DNA of 64,000 nt, from the NCBI GenBank assembly GCA_947493695.1, contig CANLSF010000003.1, positions 558,001 to 622,000 on the forward strand, in the 5' to 3' direction. The notes under the pieces were generated by a model. The model was given only the letters and a program-made list of their open reading frames with translations, searched no databases and had not been told where the DNA came from. The position numbers were made by a program, and so were the translations under genes. Positions 672 through 2,240 of the stretch are shown here, one piece after another. This DNA is from an uncultured Kiloniellaceae bacterium (GTDB lineage: Bacteria; Pseudomonadota; Alphaproteobacteria; Kiloniellales; Kiloniellaceae). Numbering within the stretch: position 1 is the first letter of the stretch; every line of letters begins with the position of its first letter.

Positions 672-960
672 TCAAGCGCATTCGAAAAGGAATGCGGAAC
701 ACTATATCCAGCGCGCAACACACTCGGATGGAGCAAAGAACACCAAGTCTCGAAACACAAATTATATATTATTGTTTTATTTAATAATTTTTATCCTTAG
801 TCAGTTCAAGACCACATAAAATCAAGTACTCCGGAGATACCGAAATAGAATCTCAAGAGCTTTCCTCTTGACCCTTTTCTCCAAATAAGGGAAAAGGCGT
901 CCGAGGATTATATTGATGATGACTATTAACTTCCCCTTCGCGCCCGTACACACCCGATTC

Positions 961-1100
961 CATGCCGCGGTGTCTGAAGGCTATGGCTCAGACGTGTGCC
1001 CCAGGCATGCGGCTGGTAGCCTGTGCGAGTTGAGATTGATGTAACCTCATTTCACGTACAGCTATTCGAAGCCGCTTCCGTCCCGAAGCGGCTTTTTTTG
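961..1100 (+). ncRNA. Candidate structured RNA or cis-regulatory leader upstream of an RNA ligase
   Basis: Successive hairpins read directly: GCCGC(964-968)/GCGGC(1009-1013) enclosing GTCTGA(972-977)/TCAGAC(988-993); TAGC-TGTGCG(1017-1027)/CGTACAGCTA(1055-1064) enclosing TGAG(1031-1034)/CTCA(1046-1049); then an intrinsic terminator. Confidence 0.6.
1069..1099 (+). terminator. Rho-independent terminator between the structured leader and the RNA ligase ORF
   Basis: AAGCCGCTTC(1069-1078)-CGTCCC-GAAGCGGCTT(1085-1094), a 10-bp perfect stem running into TTTTTTT. Confidence 0.85.
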
Positions 1101-1115
1101 TTTTTGGAGTGTGTC

Positions 1116-2240
1116 ATGCAGCTTCCTATCGAGCATATCGACGATGTCCTACCTCATATCCCGAACAATGTCGGGATCGTCGTCTCTGAGCGTCCGGACG
1201 TCCGGATCATCGACTACGTCTTCACCACCGATGCAACCTTCGCCACCCCCATGGCGCGGGAATGCCGGGGTTTGAAGTTTGCGCTTGATGGCTCGATCCT
1301 CGCACGGCCGCTCCACAAGTTCTTCAATATCGGTGAGCAACAGAGTGCGGCGGACATCGACTGGACGCAGCCCCATGTGGTTCTGGACAAGCTGGATGGC
1401 TCTATGGTTCACCCCTGCTTCCTGAGCGAGCGGCTAACCTTCATGACCCGTATGGGGGAAAGCGGTCAGGCCAAGGCGGCACTGGACCATGCCGATGAGG
1501 CTGTCCTGCGGCTCAGCCGGGATCTGCTCCTGGAAGGAATGACGCCCGTTTTCGAGTTCACTTCGCCCGATCACCGGGTTGTTCTTGCGTATCCGGAGAC
1601 CTCCCTTACACTGATTGCTGTTCGGGAGACGGTAAGTGGAACCTACCTGAGTCATGCGGAGCTTGCACGGCTGGCCGAGCGATACTGCGTTCCCCTGGTC
1701 GCCCAGCTCGGCAGAGTCGAGGATGCCATGGCATTCATCGCGCGAGGCCGTAGTCTCACCGATGTCGAGGGTTACGTCATCGCCTTTGAGGATGGCCATC
1801 GGGTTAAGCTCAAGGCCGACGCTTATGTCCTGCGGCACAGGGCCCTTGCCGGTGTATCCAAGGAACGCAACCTGCTGGAGTGGATCGTCAAGGATGCCAT
1901 CGACGATGTCCTCCCCTTGCTGTCGGACGATATCGCACAGCAGGTGGCCGCATACCGGAATCAGGTCTACCAGGCTTTGGACCGGCATGTCGCAGCACTT
2001 GCTGAATTCGCTCAGCAGCACAGCGCTCTGCCGCGAAAGGAGATCGCCTTCGCCGCCCGGGAGAAGTTGGACCAGCGACTGCATGGCGCCCTCTTTGCCA
2101 TGCTGGACGGCAACGATGGCCGGGAGGCCGTCAAGCGCCTGCTGGCCTGGGCAAGCCGTTCCGACCCGCGCATGGATTCTGTGCGTGACCTTTTCGACCT
2201 GAAGTGGGACGGCACAGATCTTGTGTTCGAACAGGGGTGA
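1116..2240 (+). CDS. T4 Rnl1-like RNA ligase (nucleotidyltransferase superfamily)
   Basis: Ligase motifs: upstream ARECRGLKF, motif I KLDGS, motif III-like FEFTSPDHRVVL, motif IV EGYVI, motif V VKLKAD. ATG at 1116 has GGAG at 1106-1109; the 1023 start lies inside the RNA structure and before the terminator. Confidence 0.88.
   Translation: MQLPIEHIDDVLPHIPNNVGIVVSERPDVRIIDYVFTTDATFATPMARECRGLKFALDGSILARPLHKFFNIGEQQSAADIDWTQPHVVLDKLDGSMVHPCFLSERLTFMTRMGESGQAKAALDHADEAVLRLSRDLLLEGMTPVFEFTSPDHRVVLAYPETSLTLIAVRETVSGTYLSHAELARLAERYCVPLVAQLGRVEDAMAFIARGRSLTDVEGYVIAFEDGHRVKLKADAYVLRHRALAGVSKERNLLEWIVKDAIDDVLPLLSDDIAQQVAAYRNQVYQALDRHVAALAEFAQQHSALPRKEIAFAAREKLDQRLHGALFAMLDGNDGREAVKRLLAWASRSDPRMDSVRDLFDLKWDGTDLVFEQG

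Follow-up and report, generated by a model that had tools for sequence, protein, structure and literature searches.

In the trp and his attenuators, the position of a ribosome within a short leader open reading frame (ORF) chooses between an antiterminator and a terminator. These leaders carry runs of regulatory codons, whereas the leader described here, which lies upstream of an RNA ligase gene, has none. In the PA5471.1–armZ system of Pseudomonas aeruginosa, impaired ribosomes have been proposed to restructure the leader RNA and prevent termination; there, too, a short leader ORF responds to general translation stress and the downstream gene is made, but that leader controls an efflux anti-repressor rather than a repair enzyme, and its sequence is unrelated (PMC12057347). 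The DUF1127 uORF of Sinorhizobium meliloti is likewise alphaproteobacterial, mediates translation-dependent transcription attenuation and has been proposed to monitor translation; it differs in its target and in its dependence on C-rich codons with which the uORF begins, and the abstract describes no antiterminator with a stop codon in its loop like that of the ligase leader (PMC12218461). In the topAI–yjhQ operon of Escherichia coli, the single uORF toiL similarly reports many kinds of stall through RNA refolding, although it acts on a ribosome-binding site and on Rho-dependent termination rather than an intrinsic terminator, and its target is a toxin–antitoxin system (PMC12121999). The rtcBA operon resembles the case proposed here in that an RNA ligase is induced by tRNA damage, but tRNA fragments bind the CARF-domain activator RtcR, the ligase is RtcB and not Rnl1, and there is no leader ORF (PMC7790460). 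Translation-sensing leader ORFs and the induction of rtcBA by tRNA damage through RtcR are thus both known; our searches of the open literature turned up no RNA ligase under control of a leader ORF.

The window, the whole stretch of 64,000 nucleotides analysed here (G000:C3:558001-622000), comes from an alphaproteobacterial genome and encodes an RNA ligase of 374 amino acids at positions 1116–2240 (plus strand, as are all features of the window given below). The protein matches the family profile PF09511 (4.6e-21) and the T4 RNA ligase 1 structures 2c5u (5.6e-34) and 5tt6 in the PDB; it also matches TIGR02308 at 1.8e-41, yet under the cut-off of that profile. By its profile match and its KxDG nucleotidyltransferase motif, which is intact in the alignment as KLDG, it is assigned to the T4 RNA ligase 1 (Rnl1) family. 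The classical substrates of Rnl1-type ligases are cleaved tRNAs, and tRNA is presumably the substrate of this enzyme as well. Its closest relatives are ligases from an uncultured Kiloniellaceae bacterium (86% identity) and a Pelagibius sp. (77%). A search for a T4-type PNK partner adjoining the ligase found no close homologue, and the match in the genome of the window is a Pnkp/Hen1 operon. This is a complete bacterial RNA-repair operon on the minus strand about 100 kb upstream of the window (G000:C3:456544-461349; L122:544-5349), with Pnkp (TIGR04075), Hen1 (TIGR04074) and an upstream nucleotidyltransferase-like gene.

Ahead of the ligase gene, most of the region from 905 to 1044 is a short reading frame, which was overlooked in the initial annotation. 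The predicted leader ORF (916–1044) has 41–42 codons, begins at the ATG at 916 or 919 and ends at the TAA at 1042–1044. It is preceded by a Shine–Dalgarno-like GAGG (903–906) and by a promoter-like block (868–896) with TTGACC at 868–873 and a weak match to a −10 element; both the block and the GAGG are conserved in the relatives L002 and L003. An inverted repeat between −35 and −10, considered as a possible operator, is not significant (p = 0.11). Downstream of the ORF lies an intrinsic terminator (1068–1099; stem 1068–1078/1085–1095, T tract 1093–1099), the stem of which has ten Watson–Crick pairs and one G–U pair (−18 kcal/mol, z = −4.65). It ends 16 nt before the ligase ATG at 1116, which has its own Shine–Dalgarno sequence, GGAG, at 1106–1109.

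This layout recurs in diverged relatives. A maximum-likelihood tree places 14 leader-bearing ligases (the window, L002–L006, L008, L009, L026, L115, L116, L117, L123 and L124), together with the leaderless L007, in one chromosomal clade (100/99), which we call the main clade. In all 14 leader-bearing loci, a short ORF lies between a promoter box and an intrinsic terminator upstream of the ligase. A TTGA(C) box occurs 48–55 nt ahead of the leader ATG in every one of them, so transcription is likely to start about 13–19 nt ahead of this ATG. The ORFs have 30–42 codons, the distance from their stop to the 5′ arm of the terminator is 23–30 nt, and a Shine–Dalgarno-like motif precedes most leader starts (weak in L008). 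A first stop within the observed spacing is found in about 2.7% of shuffled leaders, with a product over nine lineages of 1e-14, a value that overstates the strength because the spacing range was read off the data and the start codons were picked by us; L123 and L124, which were found after the spacing rule was set, both obey it.

The frame, its length and the position of its stop are kept in the relatives; the peptide is not. In four close pairs, the dN/dS of the leader is about 0.6, 0.9, 0.8 and 1.7, with changes spread over the codon positions, against 0.1–0.2 for the ligase in the same pairs. The leader is thus a conserved frame without a conserved peptide, and a dN/dS of about 0.6–1.7 does not support a conserved small protein.

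The region from 905 to 1118 folds at −74.8 kcal/mol (z = −3.36), and 1 of 200 shuffled sequences was equally stable. All elements listed in the initial annotation are present where it placed them (GCCGC at 964–968, GCGGCT at 1009–1014, AGCCGC at 1070–1075, seven T at 1093–1099, GGAG at 1106–1109 and ATG at 1116). Its first stem (964–968/1009–1013), proposed as the structure that excludes the antiterminator, does not hold region 2, the GCGGCT segment of the ORF, in most relatives and is no general element. The hairpins at 1017–1027/1055–1064 and 1031–1034/1046–1049 form the inner part of the antiterminator. The other proposal of the initial annotation, an attenuator that switches through GCGGCT and AGCCGC, gains support from diverged relatives, where this alternative pairing is found again. 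Conservation of the leader with ligase homologues extends to layout and frame but not to sequence, which is unalignable outside close relatives; covariation is weak inside the main clade, where no two-sided compensatory changes occur among close relatives and several inner pairs break. A search of Rfam 15, which the initial annotation had suggested, returned no family at the gathering score and nothing credible at relaxed thresholds.

The antiterminator hairpin of the window (1009–1075) has an outer stem of 1009–1014 and 1070–1075 and a loop at 1040–1046 with the leader TAA in its middle; folded alone, it reaches −27.6 kcal/mol (z = −3.71). By one rule for every locus, we folded the segment that begins 48 nt before the ORF ends and extends through the terminator 5′ arm. 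Most loci yield a single hairpin: region 2 (GCGGCT or a similar sequence) is paired to the arm of the terminator, and the leader stop sits at or near the tip. When all but the terminator arm was shuffled, p was 0.003–0.06 in 11 of the first 12 loci, with L008 as the exception (0.47); the later loci L123 and L124 gave 0.19 and 0.037. These single-locus tests are modest; for an antiterminator with the stop at or near its tip, Fisher's test gives p = 8e-8 over nine lineages, which are diverged members of one clade and not fully independent. A simple test of the duplex between regions 2 and 3 gave p = 2.5e-4. In L006 and L117, the terminator sequence differs and the ORF partner differs with it, so that the two are still complementary. 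The antiterminator is mutually exclusive with the terminator and overlaps the ORF, weakly so in L008 and L123. That the motif is kept in leaders that otherwise cannot be aligned points to a function.

To model a ribosome on the leader, we masked the RNA to 9 nt beyond the A-site codon and computed equilibrium folding, not kinetics. In 12 loci, the antiterminator has a pairing probability of more than 0.5 from A-site codon 1 up to about codons 23–35 and is lost as the ribosome approaches the end of the frame; in L115 this range is interrupted by a gap, and partial values appear at a few late codons. In L123 and L124, the switch comes at about codon 20 and is followed by rather high partial values, a poorer fit to the model. 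In this folding model, ribosome position would therefore give the expected change from on to off along successive codons. Without a ribosome, the probability that the terminator 5′ arm pairs with the leader is at least 0.69 in 12 of the 14 main-clade loci and lower in L002 (0.05) and L004 (0.34), so in most loci read-through should also follow a failure to initiate.

We propose that the leader is a ribosome-mediated (leader-ORF) transcription attenuator for an RNA-repair ligase, a reading to which we assign a probability of about 0.78. Transcription would start just upstream of the leader ORF, and the ORF would be translated. A ribosome that reaches the leader stop would open the antiterminator, the tip of which holds that stop codon; the 5′ arm of the terminator would then be free, the terminator would form and the ligase would not be transcribed. 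If the ribosome were halted within the first 20–30 codons or so, or were not loaded, region 2 would pair with the terminator arm, polymerase would read through and the ligase would be made. In the main clade, the terminator stem lies 15–40 nt before the ligase ATG, a gap in which a separate ligase promoter hardly fits, and read-through is thus probably the only source of the ligase. Given that the peptide is not conserved and that neither a codon nor an amino acid is used in excess, the switch should act as a general sensor of translation failure; any translation block should do, and the ligase family suggests cleaved tRNAs as the natural trigger. Against the attenuator stands L007, which falls within the ligase clade and has no leader.

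The attenuator model predicts both a role for chromosomal T4-like RNA ligases in bacteria and the time at which they are made: failure to translate a decoy ORF would turn on the ligase, whose task would presumably be the mending of tRNAs. If true, leader-ORF attenuation, known from amino-acid synthesis and drug resistance, would also cover RNA repair, and, as far as sequence comparison can indicate, RNA damage could call up its own repair. A more speculative extension, which we consider possible but rather doubtful, is a self-contained tRNA-repair loop, in which cleavage by toxins, phage-defence nucleases or stress would be the input, a sequence-indifferent leader ORF would sense any broken tRNA, and the mending ligase would be switched on directly, without a protein regulator.

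An attenuator of the trp or his type, sensing one particular aminoacyl-tRNA, or one that senses a particular nascent peptide, appears unlikely. The amino-acid make-up of the leaders resembles that of translated random DNA, save for an excess of Asn (20 in the pooled leaders versus 8.4 expected from base composition) and Phe (19 versus 9), which would favour such a sensor. However, there is no tandem run of a single codon, Asn is missing from the sensing part of L002, L026, L115 and L124, and no over-used codon survives correction for 61 tests; the lack of a conserved peptide likewise argues against a nascent-peptide sensor. Only Ala, Ser and Arg are present in every main-clade sensing stretch, and the leaders do not contain more distinct amino acids than expected by chance. 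A rare-codon sensor was rejected, as no codon passes correction and codon adaptation is low in only some leaders.

Stop codon followed by terminator is also how an ordinary gene ends, and the leader might be a separate short gene, for a small protein or a small RNA; leaky, constitutive read-through would then supply the ligase. Like the attenuator model, this explanation predicts a discrete transcript of about 195 nt with its 3′ end near 1099. It is quite improbable, given that neither the peptide nor, between families, the leader sequence is conserved, and that the recurring antiterminator would have no purpose. A co-encoded small RNA that serves the ligase as substrate or guide, a related suggestion of the initial annotation, is conceivable, though no observation speaks for it; here, too, the leader sequence is not conserved. 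A riboswitch that senses a metabolite or an RNA through an expression platform, with translation playing no role, would suit a terminator/antiterminator layout adjoining the ligase start but is highly improbable, because there is no Rfam match, the unalignable leader leaves no conserved aptamer, and the would-be aptamer is an ORF that is open in all loci. The sensor first proposed for this region is accordingly replaced in the attenuator model by a leader ORF with its stop codon in the antiterminator loop, and the likely ligand would be a ribosome.

The ligase is sporadic: among the genomes sampled, it occurs in 2 of 385 of the class, in 3 of 397 and 4 of 393 in two Rhodobacterales samples that overlap, and in 2 of 17 of family f23. 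Its neighbour genes vary between families. Three distant Caulobacterales ligases (L014, L015 and L127) are preceded by structured leaders of their own, with ORFs of 20–26 codons with a stop-to-terminator spacing of 23–26 nt. Their TTGAC box is only 34–36 nt ahead of the ATG, so these leaders would be nearly leaderless messages. That unalignable sequences share this layout suggests that it may have more than one origin. Between L014 and L015, the hairpin adjoining the stop shows five two-sided changes that leave its pairing intact.

A viral origin of the leader was considered and rejected: of the 48 viral homologues examined, 5 carry a terminator within 110 nt upstream of the match, and these five, read individually, lie beside other phage genes, with no matching leader ORF. 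The ligase of L010 (an Ahrensia MAG) is identical in the tree to that of the viral contig L030, and L010 is therefore probably a phage gene and not chromosomal. In L006 (558–1685), the ligase frame of the MAG is broken by a TAG codon, reflecting either gene decay or a mistake in the assembly. In genome G512 (L117 and L118), the ligase is split across two contigs, apparently by inserted DNA, and the leader is intact.
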